Part shown: piece by piece, positions 9,884-37,916 of the stretch
Numbering within the stretch: the stretch's first letter is position 1
How the letters are laid out: each line of letters starts with the position of its first letter
Assembly: GCA_015063235.1 (NCBI GenBank)
Contig: SUSW01000020.1
Span: forward strand, 1-38,087
From: Thermoplasmata archaeon
GTDB lineage: Archaea > Thermoplasmatota > Thermoplasmata > Methanomassiliicoccales > Methanomethylophilaceae
Length of the DNA stretch: 38,087 bases
Reading direction: 5' to 3'
Program-made: the position numbers and the translations under genes
The notes under the pieces: model-generated
Databases searched by the model: none
What the model was told of the DNA's origin: nothing
Seen by the model: only the letters and a program-made list of their open reading frames with translations

Positions 9884-9925
9884 GGGACATCTATATTCAT
9901 CTCTCTTAGCAAAGGAGGAGACACA

Positions 9926-10303
9926 ATGGATAGGGAAGAGACATATAGGGCTCTTCAGGAGGCTGTCCGGGATCTACGGGTAAAAGATGCCGCACCTCTT
10001 ACGAGAAGTGCCCTAGAACAGGGTTTGAGCCCTGTTGAGATACTTAGCGAAGGCCTTCTCAAAGGTGTCGATGCGGTAAGCATCGAGTATGAAGAGCACC
10101 GCGCTACCATGGCGCAGCTCCTGCTGGCATGCAGGGCCATCTATGCAGGATTGGAGGTCCTGTTGCCGGAGATACCATCCGATGCTTTCCAGAGAGCCAA
10201 AGAGCTTAAGGCTTCCATCGAGGATGATGATGGGAGCGACATAGGTTCGGGCATCGTCAACGCAATGGTACACACCGGCGCCCTAGGAGAATCACATCTC
10301 TGA
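9926..10303 (+). CDS. Truncated corrinoid protein: methyltransferase cap domain only
   Basis: 125 residues, with an excellent ribosome site (AAAGGAGGAG at 9911-9920) 5 nt before ATG. Residues about 1-85 (EETYRALQEAVRDL...LTRSALEQGLSPVEILSEGL...YEEHRATMAQLLLACRAIYAGLEVL) match the helical cap that precedes the B12 domain in MtmC/MtbC/MttC and MetH. Those proteins run to about 210 residues and then bind cobalamin through D-x-H-x-x-G. Here residues about 104-115 read DDGSDIGSGIVNAMV, which looks like the start of that motif (GD-HDIGKNIV) with the histidine replaced, and the protein ends soon after. It therefore should not bind corrinoid through a His ligand. It is either a decaying methylamine/methanol corrinoid protein or a retained regulatory fragment; the intact ribosome site, promoter and terminator favour expression. 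Confidence 0.7.
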   Translation: MDREETYRALQEAVRDLRVKDAAPLTRSALEQGLSPVEILSEGLLKGVDAVSIEYEEHRATMAQLLLACRAIYAGLEVLLPEIPSDAFQRAKELKASIEDDDGSDIGSGIVNAMVHTGALGESHL

Positions 10304-26520: not shown

Positions 26521-26706
26521 TCATCCGCCTGAGGCCACCCTCATTGCCTTGACGAATGTTTCTTCGCCGATGACGGTATCCATAGGAACTGGCTTTCCGT
26601 CGATAAGATAAAGATAAGAATCTGGATGGAGGCCGTTCTCCGAGATGACCTGTTCGATTGTCATCCCGGAGGGTGCCTCGATGGACTTGCCTGATACGGA
26701 TATCAT
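26521..26706 (-). CDS. Ubiquitin-like beta-grasp protein ending in Gly-Gly (ThiS/MoaD/SAMP-like)
   Basis: 61 residues from ATG 26706; ATG 26712 would add two. The sequence follows the ThiS/MoaD pattern: ISVSGKSIEAPSGMTIEQVI (first hairpin and helix), SYLYLIDGKPVPMDTVIGEE, and the end VASGG. The C-terminal Gly-Gly is what an E1-like enzyme adenylates to form a thiocarboxylate for sulfur transfer, or to link the protein to lysines in archaeal sampylation. I see no E1-like, ThiG or MoaE gene nearby. The ATG overlaps the stop of the Panacea gene by 4 nt (ATGA), so the pair is coupled. Role unknown. Confidence 0.8.
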   Translation of the reverse strand: MISVSGKSIEAPSGMTIEQVISENGLHPDSYLYLIDGKPVPMDTVIGEETFVKAMRVASGG

Positions 26707-27290
26707 TCCCATGATGACGTAAAACTGTCAGCGGGATATTTCTGATTATCTACGATAGGACCGGCTCCGACTACCACCGCATCGTTATGCTTGGACAGCT
26801 CGATGGTTGCGAGCATGAAGTCCATGTGGGACGGGATTCTGGGCCTGCGGAGGAAGTACTCCTTAATGGCAGAGGGATCTATGGCTGCGAGCTTGTCGCC
26901 GTATGTCCCGTGTGTCTCCGCCCAGGGGCCCCCTGTGTGGTAGGACATGATCTGAAGCTGTCCTGTGGAGAACTGATTGTAGAACACGGCCACATCCAAG
27001 AGGAGGTTGCGGTCGACGTCATCGAACTTCGAAACTGAGTAGCTTCCGTACGTGGAGGTGATCTGTTCATTTCCTGCCCCATCGAAATAAGCGTAGATCC
27101 TTGTCACTGCAGGCCCGTTGGGATATGCCCTGATCTCATCCATAAAGAGAGGCCTGTTGTGGCGAGCCAGACATTCTGCCTGTGCGTAGTACAGGAACAT
27201 CTGAAGGCGGGGCACCGTCATGGGATCCACTGATTTTTTGAAGTAGTCGATGAAGTAATTTGCAACGTCCATCACAGAGTAGACCGTCAT
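26703..27290 (-). CDS. Panacea-domain (SocA/DUF4065-type) protein
   Basis: 195 residues. The N-terminal 140 match the Panacea/SocA pattern closely: VANYFIDYFKK, TVPRLQMFLYYAQAECLA, PLFMDEIRAYPNGPAVTRIY, and the late MSYHTGGPWAETHG. Panacea domains are antitoxins that neutralise many unrelated toxins encoded next to them; in Caulobacter, SocA is also an adaptor that delivers its toxin SocB to ClpXP. The gene is first in a two-gene unit with the ubiquitin-like GG protein, with which it overlaps by 4 nt. A TATA-like ACATATATATTG lies about 30 nt before ATG 27290, and a TGGATTAT near-palindrome lies directly upstream of that. Confidence 0.85.
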   Translation of the reverse strand: MTVYSVMDVANYFIDYFKKSVDPMTVPRLQMFLYYAQAECLARHNRPLFMDEIRAYPNGPAVTRIYAYFDGAGNEQITSTYGSYSVSKFDDVDRNLLLDVAVFYNQFSTGQLQIMSYHTGGPWAETHGTYGDKLAAIDPSAIKEYFLRRPRIPSHMDFMLATIELSKHNDAVVVGAGPIVDNQKYPADSFTSSWE

Positions 27291-27493: not shown

Positions 27494-28843
27494 ATGAGGA
27501 AAGAGTACGAATCCTTCATCGAATCTAAACGCGATCTGTGCATCCAGAATGACAGTTTCGCACAGGCGGAATATTCCAAGTACGATGTGAAGAAAGGTCT
27601 CCGTGACGCTTCAGGCAACGGAGTCATAGTCGGATTGACGGAAGTATCCCAGGTCGACGGTACCATCACCGTCAACGGAGAGAAGCAGGAGGTCGAAGGT
27701 ATCCTGCGCTACCGTGGCTACAGCATCGAAGAGCTCACACAGGGATTCCTCAACAAAAGATTCGGTTTCGAAGAAGTTTCATACCTGGTCCTGTTCGGAA
27801 AGCTCCCCACGGTAAAGGAGCTTGAGGAGTACATGGAGATCCTCAATCAGAACCGCAAGCTCCCAAAGACATTCACAAGGGATGTCATCATGAAGGCGGC
27901 CAGCAAGGATGTCATGAACGCCATCTCTAGAGAGGTCCTCTTCCTCGCATCCTATGACGACGACGCCCTCGACAACTCTCTGGAGAACGTCCTGAGGCAG
28001 TGCCTCTACATCACCACGGTGTTCCCCATGCTCACGGTGTACAGCTACCACGCCTACAACCATTACATCAACAACCAGAGCATGTATATCCACAATCCAG
28101 ATCCAAACCTCTCCACGGCCGAGAACTTCCTGAGGATGCTCAGACCGGACAAGAAATATACCAAACTGGAGGCCACTGTCCTCGATCTTGCACTCGTCCT
28201 CCATATGGAGCACGGCGGAGGCAACAACTCCACATTCACCACCAGGGTCACCACATCATCCGGGTCGGACACCTACGCGGTCATAGCCGCTGCCATGTCC
28301 TCCCTCAAAGGCCCCAAGCACGGAGGAGCTAACCTGAAGGTCATGGACATGATGGCCGACATAAAGAAGCATGTAAAGGACCCCAACGATATCGAGGCGC
28401 TAACCGCATACATCAACAAGATACTCGACAAGGAGGCTTTTGATAAATCCGGTCTCGTCTACGGAATGGGGCATGCGATCTATACCAAATCGGACCCCCG
28501 CGCCACTGTATTCAAATCCTTCGTGAAGGACCTGGCCAAAGAGAAGGGACGCCTCAAAGATTTCACGTATTACACCAATATCGAGAAAATAGCGCCCGGA
28601 TTGATCATGAATCACAAGCACAACAACAAGAGCGTATGCGCCAATGTGGATTTCTACAGCGGATTCGTCTACGACATGCTGGACATCCCGAAGGAGCTCT
28701 TCACACCGCTCTTCGCCACCGCAAGGATCATCGGATGGAGCGCACACCGCATAGAAGAGCTGATCACATCCAACAAGATCCTCAGGCCCGCCTACGTGAA
28801 CATACAGGGCCCGAAGGAGTACGTGCCCCTCGAGAAGAGATGA
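27494..28843 (+). CDS. gltA: Citrate synthase
   Basis: 449 residues. It joins acetyl-CoA and oxaloacetate to citrate. Landmarks: RYRGYSIEEL, VSYLVLFGKLP, the histidine block LVLHMEHGGGNNSTFT, SSLKGPKHGGAN, the catalytic-site GMGHAIYTKSDPRA, NVDFYSGFVYDML, and the arginine motif FATARIIGWSAHRIEE. An N-terminal part of about 45 residues precedes the usual core, as in the long form found in Clostridia and Bacteroidetes, so the gene may come from gut bacteria. In a methanogen without a full TCA cycle it would feed glutamate synthesis through citrate and 2-oxoglutarate. It stands alone with its own TATA box. Confidence 0.93.
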   Translation: MRKEYESFIESKRDLCIQNDSFAQAEYSKYDVKKGLRDASGNGVIVGLTEVSQVDGTITVNGEKQEVEGILRYRGYSIEELTQGFLNKRFGFEEVSYLVLFGKLPTVKELEEYMEILNQNRKLPKTFTRDVIMKAASKDVMNAISREVLFLASYDDDALDNSLENVLRQCLYITTVFPMLTVYSYHAYNHYINNQSMYIHNPDPNLSTAENFLRMLRPDKKYTKLEATVLDLALVLHMEHGGGNNSTFTTRVTTSSGSDTYAVIAAAMSSLKGPKHGGANLKVMDMMADIKKHVKDPNDIEALTAYINKILDKEAFDKSGLVYGMGHAIYTKSDPRATVFKSFVKDLAKEKGRLKDFTYYTNIEKIAPGLIMNHKHNNKSVCANVDFYSGFVYDMLDIPKELFTPLFATARIIGWSAHRIEELITSNKILRPAYVNIQGPKEYVPLEKR

Positions 28844-28888: not shown

Positions 28889-28897
28889 GTTTATCTA
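28889..28897 (+). promoter_or_regulatory. TATA box of the amber-containing acetyltransferase gene
   Basis: GTTTATCTA lies about 38 nt before ATG 28929, giving a leader of about 10 nt. The next possible start (TTG 28992) would need a leader of over 70 nt without a ribosome site, so the promoter supports ATG 28929. Confidence 0.45.
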
Positions 28898-28928: not shown

Positions 28929-29588
28929 ATGAGCACCAACAGCCTGGACGAGGAATTGTAGATAGATGGATACGAGACCGTTTCGAACCTCTTGAAAGCA
29001 TATGATAATGCTGACAGGGGATTCCTAGCACCTCTTGAAAGGGAACGTTCATCGATGGTCCCTGTGATGGTGCCGCTCCACTCTCTGACAGAATGGATGC
29101 ACACGGATTCCGTCAAATCACTTCTCCACAGTTTCAGATCCTTGGATCAGGACGGTGCATCGTTCCTGAGGTGCGAGGCGCTGCATGCTGAGGAGGAAGG
29201 CATCGCAAGGACGTATCTGTTCATGGACATCTCCATCCGGACGAAGATACTGGCCTTCTTCACCATCGGTACGAGCCACATGTATGTACCGGCCTTCGAG
29301 ACCCTGGACGAGGATCTGATGAGCTCCATGAATGTATCTGCCCGCACCGGCTATGCGCCTACATACCTCATATCCCATCTGTGTATAGGTCTGGATGCCG
29401 ACATCCCCATGTCTGCCCTTTTCGACAGCGCCATGTCCATGATACGCTGTTCGTGGAAGACCACTGGCTGCCGCCTGATACGTCTGGATTGCTCCGACAC
29501 CACGATCGGTTTCTTCGAATCCAAAGGATTCACGTACATACGGAAGAACGACGACCAGGATCTGAACCAGATGCTGTATGTCACCTGA
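28929..29588 (+). CDS. GNAT-like acetyltransferase with in-frame TAG at codon 11
   Basis: Reading from ATG 28929 gives MSTNSLDEEL, then TAG at 28959-28961, then IDGYETVSNLLKAYDN and 198 more open codons to TGA, 219 residues with the amber position. The part after TAG reads smoothly as protein: a helix before the later TTG 28992 (codons ETVSNLL) and a GNAT-like core (ARTYLFMDISIRTKILAFFTIG, then RLIRLDCSDTTIGFFESKGFTYI). GNAT proteins use acetyl-CoA; the substrate is unknown. TATA position and the quality of the N-terminal residues favour ATG 28929 with UAG read as an amino acid, in Methanomassiliicoccales pyrrolysine. The alternatives are a start at TTG 28992 or a fresh nonsense mutation. Neither start has a ribosome site. 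Confidence 0.55.
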
Positions 29589-29621
29589 ATGTAGAAATAC
29601 CGCCCTTCCGATTCACCGAGC

Positions 29622-30005
29622 ATGACCGACAGGGAGACATTGGCCAACAGCAGATTCTCATGCACCCCGCGTGAACGTGCGGTCTTCGAAGCCGGCATAA
29701 AGCTTGCTACAATTTACCATCAGTTCGTCGGGACCCCGGTAAATCTGGAGTCTGTAGAAAAGCTCGAGGATGCCATATCGAGGTCCATCGAGGTCCAGCC
29801 CTACGTCAAATCCGCAGAGGTCACAATTGACCGCTCGTTCTTCAGCAAGGAAATGGACAGATACTCCTACCTGTCACTCACAGGGAATATGATCGATGCC
29901 GTAATCAGAATTGAATTGGACGGCAATCTGGTCACCGCAGAGATGAGATTTGACAGGGAACTGAATTACCCGCTCATGTTTATCTCGGACATCTCAGAGG
30001 TCTGA
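29622..30005 (+). CDS. mptD: Dihydroneopterin aldolase, archaeal type
   Basis: 127 residues. ERAVFEAGIKLATIYHQFVGTPV is the hallmark of the archaeal MptD family, with the conserved Glu and His that serve the aldolase site; LEDAISRSIEVQPYVKSAEV and LELDG-like IRIELDGNLVTAEM follow. It splits dihydroneopterin into 6-hydroxymethyl-dihydropterin and glycolaldehyde, on the way to the pterin part of tetrahydromethanopterin, the C1 carrier of methanogens, or of a folate-like cofactor. It follows the previous gene by 33 nt and may be co-transcribed. Its end overlaps that of the minus-strand gene at 29966 by 40 bp. Confidence 0.85.
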   Translation: MTDRETLANSRFSCTPRERAVFEAGIKLATIYHQFVGTPVNLESVEKLEDAISRSIEVQPYVKSAEVTIDRSFFSKEMDRYSYLSLTGNMIDAVIRIELDGNLVTAEMRFDRELNYPLMFISDISEV

Positions 30006-34305: not shown

Positions 34306-36075
34306 CTATGTATTTATCTTCTCGAAGGAACCCAAATAGCGGCCATCATTCATGCCGTCGTCCCCTCCGACACCGGTTACATCTCCTGGCTGGTATTTAG
34401 CCATCAGGAACACATTTCCGTATCTGTCCTGCACTGAACTCCAACCGCAGAATTTGAGCCCATACTTGTTCACCGGCTCTTTTCCCTCATAGGATGGCCA
34501 TTCGTTCAGGGGTACTCCGGAGGTCTTCTGGAGTACCGTACCATCGTAGTTCATCCAGGTGAATGTGAGCGTTTCCGGTTTTGGATCCGGTATCTTGTAC
34601 GCACATTCTTTCTCTGTCATCCCCACGGTCGTCCATGTATATCCGCCGATGGAACCCATGTTTGACGGTATCTCAGTCGTCTTATCCGTGTCATAGAACT
34701 TTTTCGTGCCGAATTGGGAAAGACTTTTAGAAGCTATGTCCGGGTCGGTGGTTGGAGGTGCGTTGAATATTTCCAGATGGGCGAGGAAACCAAAGAAACC
34801 GATGTCGACATCCGTGCCTTCGAAAGAGACGTATTTCAGTGTTTTGACACCAAATGCCATAAAGCCTATGGATTTGACTGAAGCCGGTATGACCACTGAT
34901 GTAAGGCTGGTACCGGAGAATGCACTATGTTCTATGGTTTTGACTGAGTTGGGAATAATGACATATTCCAACCCAGTATTGCCGAAAGCACTTGGTCCTA
35001 TTGTCTCAATTGAATCGGGCAGGACTATCGATTTCAGCGATGAGCAGTAGGCGAACATGAAATCCGGAATGGTCTTGAGAGTATCGGGGATGTAAGCGTA
35101 CTCGAGAGAACTGCATTTCTCAAATGTATTGTCCCCGACCGATTTCAGATTGGGGGAGAGTATGGCGCATTTCAGTGCTTTGCATTCCTGGAAGGCACTT
35201 AAACCTATGCTCTCCACGTTGTCCAGTCTTATCTCGGTGATCGCAGATCTTTCGAATGCATAATCTCCTATGGATTTGACCGAATCCGGGATGACGACCT
35301 TCTTCAGATTTTTGCAGCACCAGAATGTTTTATCGCCGATTTCACTGACCCCTTCCGGTATTATTACCGACTCTATCCCGGAGAATTGGAATGCGCCGTT
35401 CATCGACTGGACTGATGCCGGAATCTCGATATTCTTTATCGGCGCCTCCACGAACATGCTCTTTCCGAGCTCCTTTATGCCGTTAGGCAGTTTGACGGAG
35501 GTCAGTTTGGTGCAGTTCTTGAACACCTCGTTCCCCATCTTGGTGACGGTGTCGGGGATGACTATGGATTTCAGATCGGATCTCTCGAAAGCGTTGTCCC
35601 CGATGCTGGTCACGGTGCTGGGGATCACCACTTCGGTGTAGCCGAATGTGTAGAACGCGCAGGATCCGATATGGGTCACGCCCTCCTCTATGATCAGCTT
35701 ATTGCATCCGAAGTAAGGGGATTGCCAGCGGATCCTGTCATCCCATGGGGCGGTGGTGCAGTCGCTATGGTCTACATGGAAATAGTCTCCCATGCGGCCG
35801 TGTCCGCTGACCTTCAGGATACCGTCCCCGTACTGGACCAATCCTTTTTTGTCCTGTATCCAGTGGCTGTCGTACGTTACCACGCAGTCTCCGGAATTCC
35901 AGCTTTGGTGGATCTCTCCCGTATCCCCTTTCATTACAATAGCATCCGCCGATTCCGTTCCGACCGCAACGATGCACGAGCCGCAAAGCATGAATACCGC
36001 GGCCAGCAGCGCCAGGGCCAATTTCTTGGAATTCGCGGAGATGAACATCTTTCCGTCATATTCCGCCTTATTCAT
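34306..36075 (-). CDS. BspA-type leucine-rich-repeat surface protein, ends in TAG
   Basis: 589 residues. A signal peptide (LALALLAAVFMLCGSCIVA, about 18-37) is followed by a lead-in of about 85 residues and about 12 LRR_5 units of 22-24 residues with the pattern I-x-IPxSVxxIGxxAFxxCxxLxxV (for example VIPSTVTSIGDNAF and VIPDSVKSIGDYAF). After about 430 the repeats give way to a beta-rich tail. BspA-like repeats are frequent in gut bacteria and gut archaea, where they bind host or microbial surfaces, so spread by gene transfer is likely. No anchor is present before the stop. The stop is TAG (34308-34306), the only one in the window; read-through would add 23 residues with a hydrophobic run (WLQALLVFVPSLV) before TGA at 34236-34234. 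Confidence 0.85.
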   Translation of the reverse strand: MNKAEYDGKMFISANSKKLALALLAAVFMLCGSCIVAVGTESADAIVMKGDTGEIHQSWNSGDCVVTYDSHWIQDKKGLVQYGDGILKVSGHGRMGDYFHVDHSDCTTAPWDDRIRWQSPYFGCNKLIIEEGVTHIGSCAFYTFGYTEVVIPSTVTSIGDNAFERSDLKSIVIPDTVTKMGNEVFKNCTKLTSVKLPNGIKELGKSMFVEAPIKNIEIPASVQSMNGAFQFSGIESVIIPEGVSEIGDKTFWCCKNLKKVVIPDSVKSIGDYAFERSAITEIRLDNVESIGLSAFQECKALKCAILSPNLKSVGDNTFEKCSSLEYAYIPDTLKTIPDFMFAYCSSLKSIVLPDSIETIGPSAFGNTGLEYVIIPNSVKTIEHSAFSGTSLTSVVIPASVKSIGFMAFGVKTLKYVSFEGTDVDIGFFGFLAHLEIFNAPPTTDPDIASKSLSQFGTKKFYDTDKTTEIPSNMGSIGGYTWTTVGMTEKECAYKIPDPKPETLTFTWMNYDGTVLQKTSGVPLNEWPSYEGKEPVNKYGLKFCGWSSVQDRYGNVFLMAKYQPGDVTGVGGDDGMNDGRYLGSFEKINT

Positions 36076-36863: not shown

Positions 36864-37916
36864 TCATTCCGACCTGTTCTGAGCTTCCAGCATAGCCCTC
36901 TTCTTGAGCTTCTTCTTGCGGTGGCCGCACTCCCTCTTCCTCTTGGGATGTCCACTACTGCCTGATGCCTTCCTCTTCCTGGGCGTCCTGGATGATCCGG
37001 GAGCTCTGGCCTTCTTCTCTGGCGGCGCTGGCGGTTTGTAGTTCATCTCCACGATGACGGTATTGCCCTTCTCGACTATGGTACAACCCAGGAATTCGAT
37101 CACATCCCCCGGGACGAAATGCTTCTCCTTTTCCGGGTTGATTGTCAGCCGTTTAGATTCGATTATTGAGAGCAGCTCGTCATGGAGTTTCTTAGCCTCC
37201 TCGTCGGTCTTCGCCATCAGAAGAATATCGTCGGCGTAACGGTAGTAATAGCAATCCTTCTCGGAAAAATAGGAATCCATCTCTCTGAGATAGAAATTGG
37301 ACAGGAAAGGTGCGACAGGGATGCCTGCCATGACGCCCTTCTTCTCCTTGATGACCTCTCCTTCGAACCTGACCTCATCGCCGGAAAGCAGATTCCTGTA
37401 CATGCTTACAAGAGGCTTGTCCTCCATGGTCCTGTCGAGATCATCCAGCAGTATCCCTACGTCCACGGTGTTGAAGTAATCGTGGATGTCCATCTTGTAC
37501 CCGTACATCTTCCCGATACCGGGAGATTTACGCAGAGCCGACATGGCCTCCCTGAGCCCGTATCCATTACGGAACGAGAACAGGTTGCGTGAAAAGAGAT
37601 TGTCATAGAAATGCATGTTATAGGCTACCAGACGGAGCGCCATGGTCTCAACCTCATCGAAAGCATAGAGGGACCTCTTCTTGTTTGAATTCGGCTTACC
37701 GATCTGAGTCTTCTTGGGAATGGAGAAGACATGGTCCCCCTTGGAGATCTCGCGTATGATCTCGGTAGAATCTTTGTCATGGAGGATCCTGCGACAGTAT
37801 CTGACCTTGCCTGCAGGATATGTACCCTTCTTGGAATTGAAAAACTCCTTCCACATCCTGTTATCTGCAATGGTACTCAAGCTGCCATCGTTATGCCATT
37901 GTCCTTCTGTTCCCAT
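36864..37916 (-). CDS. Stand-alone reverse transcriptase
   Basis: 350 residues from ATG 37916, with GAGGG about 7 nt before it. Polymerase motifs: KKRSLYAFDEVE (about 79-90), SFRNGYGLREAM (114-125), KMDIHDYFNTVD with the first catalytic Asp (141-152), AGIPVAPFLSNFYL (197-210), YRYADDILLMAKTD with the two catalytic Asp (225-238), and FLGCTIV (end of the palm/thumb). I see no maturase or HNH domain as in group II intron proteins, no NAxxH or VTG motif as in retrons, and no SQ in motif 4 as in diversity-generating RTs. The tail after about 290 is Pro, Lys and Arg rich (TPRKRKASGSS, HPKRKRECGHRKKKLKKR) and should bind RNA or DNA. Class unknown; a domesticated or defence-type RT is possible. Confidence 0.85.
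   Translation of the reverse strand: MGTEGQWHNDGSLSTIADNRMWKEFFNSKKGTYPAGKVRYCRRILHDKDSTEIIREISKGDHVFSIPKKTQIGKPNSNKKRSLYAFDEVETMALRLVAYNMHFYDNLFSRNLFSFRNGYGLREAMSALRKSPGIGKMYGYKMDIHDYFNTVDVGILLDDLDRTMEDKPLVSMYRNLLSGDEVRFEGEVIKEKKGVMAGIPVAPFLSNFYLREMDSYFSEKDCYYYRYADDILLMAKTDEEAKKLHDELLSIIESKRLTINPEKEKHFVPGDVIEFLGCTIVEKGNTVIVEMNYKPPAPPEKKARAPGSSRTPRKRKASGSSGHPKRKRECGHRKKKLKKRAMLEAQNRSE

Follow-up and report, generated by a model that had tools for sequence, protein, structure and literature searches.

An antitoxin/GNAT-toxin-like gene with an in-frame TAG

The window, by which we mean the whole stretch of 38,087 nucleotides that was analyzed, makes up one contig of a draft genome of 1.78 Mb (54 contigs, 87 % complete). 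On its forward strand, positions 28929-29588 are occupied by a frame that opens with ATG 28929, runs for ten codons to an in-frame TAG (28959-28961), continues over 208 sense codons and closes with a TGA (29586-29588), a layout noted earlier from the letters and confirmed here on the sequence. With TAG counted as an amino acid, the product has 219 residues. Based on homology and predicted fold, this gene appears to be a fused antitoxin/GNAT-toxin-like gene: an antitoxin-like N-terminal segment (residues 1-30, 28929-29018), recognized by profile homology and holding the TAG as codon 11, which is also column 11 of the antitoxin profile, precedes a GNAT toxin-like core (residues 43-219, 29055-29585), recognized by homologue search and predicted fold. 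By family matches, a citrate synthase directly adjoins the gene upstream (27494-28843) and a dihydroneopterin aldolase follows it downstream (29622-30005), both on the same strand. A SocA/Panacea antitoxin-like protein is encoded nearby on the other strand (26703-27290, E 2.6e-10). Elsewhere, the window encodes a short B12-binding_2 domain protein resembling the N-terminal half of methyltransferase corrinoid proteins (9923-10303, forward strand) and, near the contig end, a protein with a reverse transcriptase domain (RVT_1, E 8.8e-25; 36864-37916, reverse strand).

Homologues of the fused protein were found in 54 of the 147 genomes of the order. The profile of this toxin-side family matches GNAT toxins of the GmvT, AtaT, TacT and KacT type (best E 2.3e-11), and the predicted structure of the window protein (pLDDT 85.8, pTM 0.79; O modelled as Lys) retrieves AtaT, AtaT2, TacT3 and KacT as its top PDB matches in Foldseek (the best, AtaT, with E 2.3e-8 and a TM-score by query length of 0.61). 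The GNAT type proposed in the earlier note is thus supported by both the family profile and the AtaT/TacT/KacT-type fold. The window protein gave no family match in Pfam, NCBIfam or PADLOC, either as the part following the TAG or as a whole, so that the family alignment was needed; against PDB chains it yielded one weak match (E 0.53), and four of six toxin homologues had GNAT matches in Pfam, all below the curated cut-offs. Three GNAT toxin homologues of the same family carry an internal TAG themselves, at different places (L026, L043, L015).

The fold alignment comprised the window protein, its relative from the genome G009 and, from the 98 listed places, 31 homologues (34 stop-free stretches had been prepared, of which three same-place duplicates were dropped). 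Several residues invariant in all 31 relatives are changed in the window protein. At the place of the acetyl-CoA loop (residues 146-163, 29364-29417), which reads GQLxR...KGFG in the relatives, GQL has lost its Gly and Gln and KGFG its last Gly, and the Tyr-Tyr of the relatives is Phe-Phe at residues 195-196 (29511-29516). In the profile alignment, the second of these positions corresponds to the Tyr of AtaT-like toxins; the conserved Tyr139 of AtaT2 is described as required for toxicity (PMC7470980), and Y144F and Y145F appear in the PDB titles of AtaT and KacT mutants. Arg94, Thr95, Tyr96, Gly180, Cys181, Asp187, Cys188 and Phe201 are conserved residues that are kept. With both this loop and the catalytic-type tyrosine lost, the toxin part is, judged by these residues, probably inactive as an acetyltransferase.

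A diverged relative at the same place in one other genome

Among the 31 same-genus genomes, only G009 has a same-strand homologue of similar length directly between citrate synthase and aldolase. The two proteins are about 30 % identical; a search of the genome contigs with the window protein by itself returned no relative, and a search with the two-sequence alignment returned only JAEEOP010000034.1, taken as the contig of G009. Matches reaching the fused N-terminus came from two of the 147 genomes of the order, that of the window and one other, with a search profile that contained both sequences. The ATG of the G009 gene can be aligned to ATG 28929, its codon 11 encodes Val, and a TATA-like box, GTTAAATA, lies 38 nt before the aligned ATG as read by eye (39 nt in the window). 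Inside the gene there is neither a TAG nor any other stop, nor is there an ATG at the place of the window's ATG 29055. The Met-anchored, ungapped similarity between the two N-termini was reached by 65 of 20000 shuffles, in a test chosen after the alignment had been seen. Against the antitoxin profile the G009 N-terminus has a negative score and is unlisted at E 10, so that its kinship to the antitoxins passes through the window protein; either it has diverged further or it is a different segment. The G009 protein has also lost the acetyl-CoA loop and has kept the second Tyr.

The gap between citrate synthase and aldolase measures only a few bases in some same-genus genomes (e.g., G007 and G022), and in many it is larger or holds other genes; G024, the nearest relative by citrate synthase (90 %), is without the fused gene. 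In G010, three paired GNAT homologues lie in a row between the two flanking genes on the opposite strand (G010:C47:1904-4229; L006, L023, L029). Around another paired GNAT locus, G000:C27 and G003:C7 share 3.5 kb with 98.75 % identity (L107:11105-14624 versus L025), reflecting either recent transfer or mis-binning. Dihydroneopterin aldolase matches with one internal TAG were encountered in G002 and G001 (L066 and L067).

These observations bear on the possibility that the gene is merely decaying, i.e., that the fused toxin remnant has outlived its use and that its TAG, suppressed or not, is a mutation in a pseudogene, either neutral or an early disabling one. The catalytic motifs lost in both copies, the match of the fused N-terminus in just two genomes and the lack of the gene in G024 would all be in line with decay. 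Yet, no TAA or TGA occurs in the 219 codons (chance 0.0015 at this base composition), the frame is open and free of stops in the strongly diverged G009 copy as well, codon use is coding-like from 29055 on (log-odds +34), and some family positions such as Arg94, Thr95 and Tyr96 persist; we therefore regard decay as an unlikely account, if the likeliest of the alternatives weighed here. That the frame remained open in two species despite strong divergence argues for some selection, while the same divergence together with the lost motif residues makes late decay possible. A binding role left over from the antitoxin/toxin complex would fit, as would slow decay.

The antitoxin-like segment across the TAG and the start of the gene

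A small antitoxin-like frame, starting MATxSFxEDMVIDTPEAA or similar, is present in 52 of the 59 GNAT loci fetched (e.g., L007:1325-1495 and L024:1296-1472), which were picked by toxin similarity and include several places twice; the seven loci without a match are L005, L122 and L149, all from G009, and L009, L021, L028 and L140. In most of the 16 loci inspected, this frame lies just upstream of the toxin homologue, G009 (L005) being an exception. We call it an antitoxin by position and analogy; models from Pfam (four loci tried), NCBIfam (four) and PADLOC (two) did not match it (best E 0.12). Beside the window's own toxin-like core there is no separate antitoxin gene of the kind expected in a type II pair: the segment is fused to the core, and citrate synthase lies directly upstream.

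A profile was built from 49 distinct antitoxin N-termini, those of the window and G009 being absent, and compared to 7789 six-frame segments drawn from the genome sample and from the stretches of three relatives. The window frame came second with E 3.7e-4 (domain 9.6e-4), behind the genome's own paired antitoxin (E 2e-17), which is itself a member of the profile, and ahead of a third match at E 1.9; no further match was found in the window at E 10. The alignment begins with model position 1 at ATG 28929 and extends to position 30, ungapped through the TAG. An earlier seed profile of 14 sequences also ranked the window frame second, with E 0.14 (domain 0.31). When the two sides of the TAG were scored separately, both exceeded shuffled sequences (p 0.0014 for residues 2-10, p 5e-5 for residues 12-30), and the score of the window was reached by two of 6994 Met-started 30-mers in the sample, the other being the genome's own paired antitoxin, again a profile member. 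In the predicted structure, residues 1-11 are of low confidence.

Coding homology in one frame on both sides of the TAG, as expected of a Pyl-containing protein, is thus found. The conservation of TAG among orthologues that would mark a functional, conserved pyrrolysine is not: column 11 holds V 35, I 7, E 3, R 2, D 1 and M 1 in the 49 antitoxins (Val/Ile in 42 of 49), none of them has a TAG there, and G009 has Val. The earlier note had proposed alignment of homologues as a check on both residues 1-10 and codon 11; the N-terminus does match antitoxin N-termini over residues 1-30, and the position of codon 11 turns out to hold mostly Val/Ile and no TAG in the relatives. The profile match through the TAG, together with the sense codons at column 11, indicates that codon 11 was once a sense codon inside the antitoxin segment. 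That segment now runs on into the toxin part without a break.

An ATG followed by an in-frame TAG ahead of a coding region was considered as evidence in its own right and rejected, as 20 of 222 coding-scored ORFs in the genome sample (266,041 bases, the window plus 15 stretches) have such an upstream TAG with an ATG beyond, which is near chance. Seven of these 20 are genes with the TAG well inside the coding region, namely five methylamine methyltransferases, a citramalate synthase and a transposase relative. The aldolase shows the same ATG-TAG pattern in frame (29589-29621, forward strand) before its start at 29622; we rejected it as a second Pyl gene and consider it a chance look-alike because the relatives align from ATG 29622. 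The TAG of the fused gene rises above chance because residues 1-30 are homologous to the antitoxin-like family.

The best TATA match, TTTATCTA at 28890-28897 (forward strand), agrees with TTTATATA at 7/8 positions and lies 39 nt before ATG 28929; the box reported for this start in the earlier note is hence present, at 28890-28897 and not at 28889-28897. A survey of TATA matches over 113 genes gave a broad clustering only (by eye about -42 to -28), so that the box speaks weakly for this start, which is supported by the antitoxin-profile alignment beginning exactly there. One could instead place the start downstream, at TTG 28992, the first ATG/GTG/TTG codon past the TAG, or at ATG 29055, the next ATG, with the TAG falling into an untranslated leader. 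The paired toxins of some relatives seem by eye to start close to where ATG 29055 lies, an AGGG lies 11 nt before it, the codon log-odds for 28992-29054 are slightly negative (-1.2), and a 6/8 TATA match, TGTAGATA, stands 35 nt before TTG 28992. Against this, residues 1-30 resemble a coding antitoxin N-terminus from precisely ATG 28929, the best TATA match sits before that codon, and an ATG matching the later one is missing from the G009 gene, which leaves a downstream start distinctly improbable.

Reading of UAG in the genome and comparison with known systems

The genome encodes PylS, PylB, PylC and PylD, all above cut-offs, and a tRNA-Pyl gene with anticodon CTA, i.e., the tRNA-Pyl(CUA), PylS and PylBCD set expected where Pyl-containing proteins are made; the absence of pylS/pylT, named beforehand as an observation that would speak against a pyrrolysine, is thus not encountered. 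The 28 coding-scored ORFs of the window end with 23 TGA, 4 TAA and 1 TAG, as anticipated from the first inspection, in which TAG had seemed nearly absent as a stop. In the genome sample (ORFs scored with a codon model trained on 92 ORFs of the same sample, cut at log-odds 12 and 80 codons), the standard code gives 188 TGA, 23 TAA and 11 TAG stops for 222 ORFs. The 11 TAG-ended ORFs are five methylamine methyltransferases, citramalate synthase, L108:8191, whose TAG has coding-like sequence before and after it, L114:18151-18459, which has no counterpart among the 214 ORFs obtained with TAG as sense, and three with only 7, 12 or 23 codons from the TAG to the next stop. These last three could be true stops (3/214, 1.4 %, compared to 1.6 % in Ca. 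M. alvus; PMC4153887). At least one TAG is held by 32 of the 214 ORFs, the first within the first 40 codons in 20 of the 32, where the start is uncertain. In nine ORFs the coding score exceeds 5 both before and after a TAG; two of these are without a Pfam match, and the others are the five methylamine methyltransferases, citramalate synthase and a DDE-transposase relative. The citramalate synthase (L113:4514-6085) has its TAG at codon 193 within a near full-length match of 691 bits (cut-off 450). An internal TAG is also found in citrate synthase in 8 of 28 same-genus genomes (of 31, three with incomplete matches being left out), in three columns, two of them variable and one Arg/Lys; one of these positions is common to five genomes (loci L073-L100). 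In the window, the frame of a BspA-type leucine-rich repeat protein (34306-36075, reverse strand) ends with a TAG that is separated from the next stop by 23 further codons, and this TAG is either a rare stop or the entry to a Pyl extension.

With tRNA-Pyl, PylS and PylBCD present and TAG almost given up as a stop, UAG would be read as pyrrolysine. We thus consider it likely, on the strength of these sequence comparisons, that the TAG lies in a real fused toxin-antitoxin remnant and that UAG is simply read as pyrrolysine. The first ~30 residues would go back to a small antitoxin-like protein and the remainder to the AtaT/TacT/KacT-type GNAT toxin encoded next to it, so that a gene pair would have merged into a single gene, whose toxin part would then have lost its activity with the acetyl-CoA-binding loop and the catalytic-type tyrosine. 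Codon 11, at a position with mostly Val/Ile and also Glu, Arg and Asp in relatives, would have turned into TAG by substitution. Transcribed from the TATA box, the gene would yield the full 219-residue protein, with UAG decoded by the usual machinery and a Pyl side chain that has no evident special role. Codon 11 is, in all these respects, most likely an ordinary pyrrolysine codon.

The earlier note had also envisaged a gate. With Pyl-tRNA available the fused protein would be made, and without it translation would stop after ten codons or restart at ATG 29055 and give the toxin-like core devoid of the antitoxin segment, so that the gene would sense pyrrolysine (methylamine) supply. The TAG does lie inside the antitoxin segment and upstream of an internal ATG, as such a device would require. 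However, the core looks catalytically dead, the G009 gene has no TAG, and TAG occurs inside metabolic genes without any such logic; an RNA element following the UAG was rejected as well, the structure there being nothing notable (z -1.37, 20 of 200 shuffles equally stable). Nothing in the RNA structure, the G009 gene or the core thus favors the gate, which we hold to be very improbable, and equally slight is the chance that the TAG makes protein output, or the share of fused protein relative to toxin-like core, dependent on Pyl-tRNA and hence on methylamine supply. That the TAG is an assembly or sequencing error for a sense codon one base away, as a draft of 54 contigs at 87 % completeness might allow, is scarcely credible, since in-frame TAGs recur in other genes and in other genomes of the genus, at one citrate synthase position in five of them, and nothing else is disrupted in the fused gene.

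Compared to what is in print, the reading of codon 11 as an ordinary pyrrolysine is not exceptional. The list published for Ca. M. alvus comprises 16 putative Pyl proteins besides the methyltransferases, including a putative acetyltransferase, an Rv0623-like transcription factor and a Fic protein, and TAG accounts for 1.6 % of the stops in that genome (Borrel et al., 2014; PMC4153887); 46 genes with an in-frame amber codon are given for ISO4-H5 (PMC5011839). In-frame TAGs in many genes of the order having thus been published in 2014-2016, the present one is not the new kind of case it had first been taken for. Like the putative Pyl proteins listed in these two papers, the fused gene combines an in-frame TAG in an ordinary gene with a full pyl cassette and rare TAG stops; its particular traits are the fusion of antitoxin-like and toxin-like parts and the position of the TAG in the former. 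Among the matches listed in our literature search, no paper dealt, by title or start of abstract, with pyrrolysine in a toxin-antitoxin gene, which does not prove that none exists. An archaeal "Pyl code" in which all TAG stands for pyrrolysine has reportedly been described by Kivenson and colleagues in 2025. Such a code would explain the TAGs of this genome as sense, whereas the three short-tailed ORFs among the 214 sampled (7-23 codons from TAG to the next stop) may end with true TAG stops. The methylamine methyltransferases MtmB, MtbB and MttB have in-frame TAGs in the same genome, and in these enzymes pyrrolysine is a conserved functional residue; the TAG of the fused gene, in contrast, stands at a Val/Ile column and in one genome. 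The plain reading thus prevails for codon 11, a TAG that behaves as a sense codon arising by ordinary substitution, and the case shows how homology to either side of the codon can serve to assess a lone in-frame TAG in these methanogens.

On the toxin side, the window protein resembles the type II GNAT toxins AtaT, TacT, KacT and GmvT in predicted fold and family profile, and differs from them in having lost the acetyl-CoA loop and the catalytic-type Tyr and in being fused to an antitoxin-like segment. The comparison brings out an antitoxin-like family, unmatched by the model libraries searched, whose members in Methanomassiliicoccales are paired with AtaT-type GNAT homologues; in one case such a pair appears to have fused and probably lost its activity.
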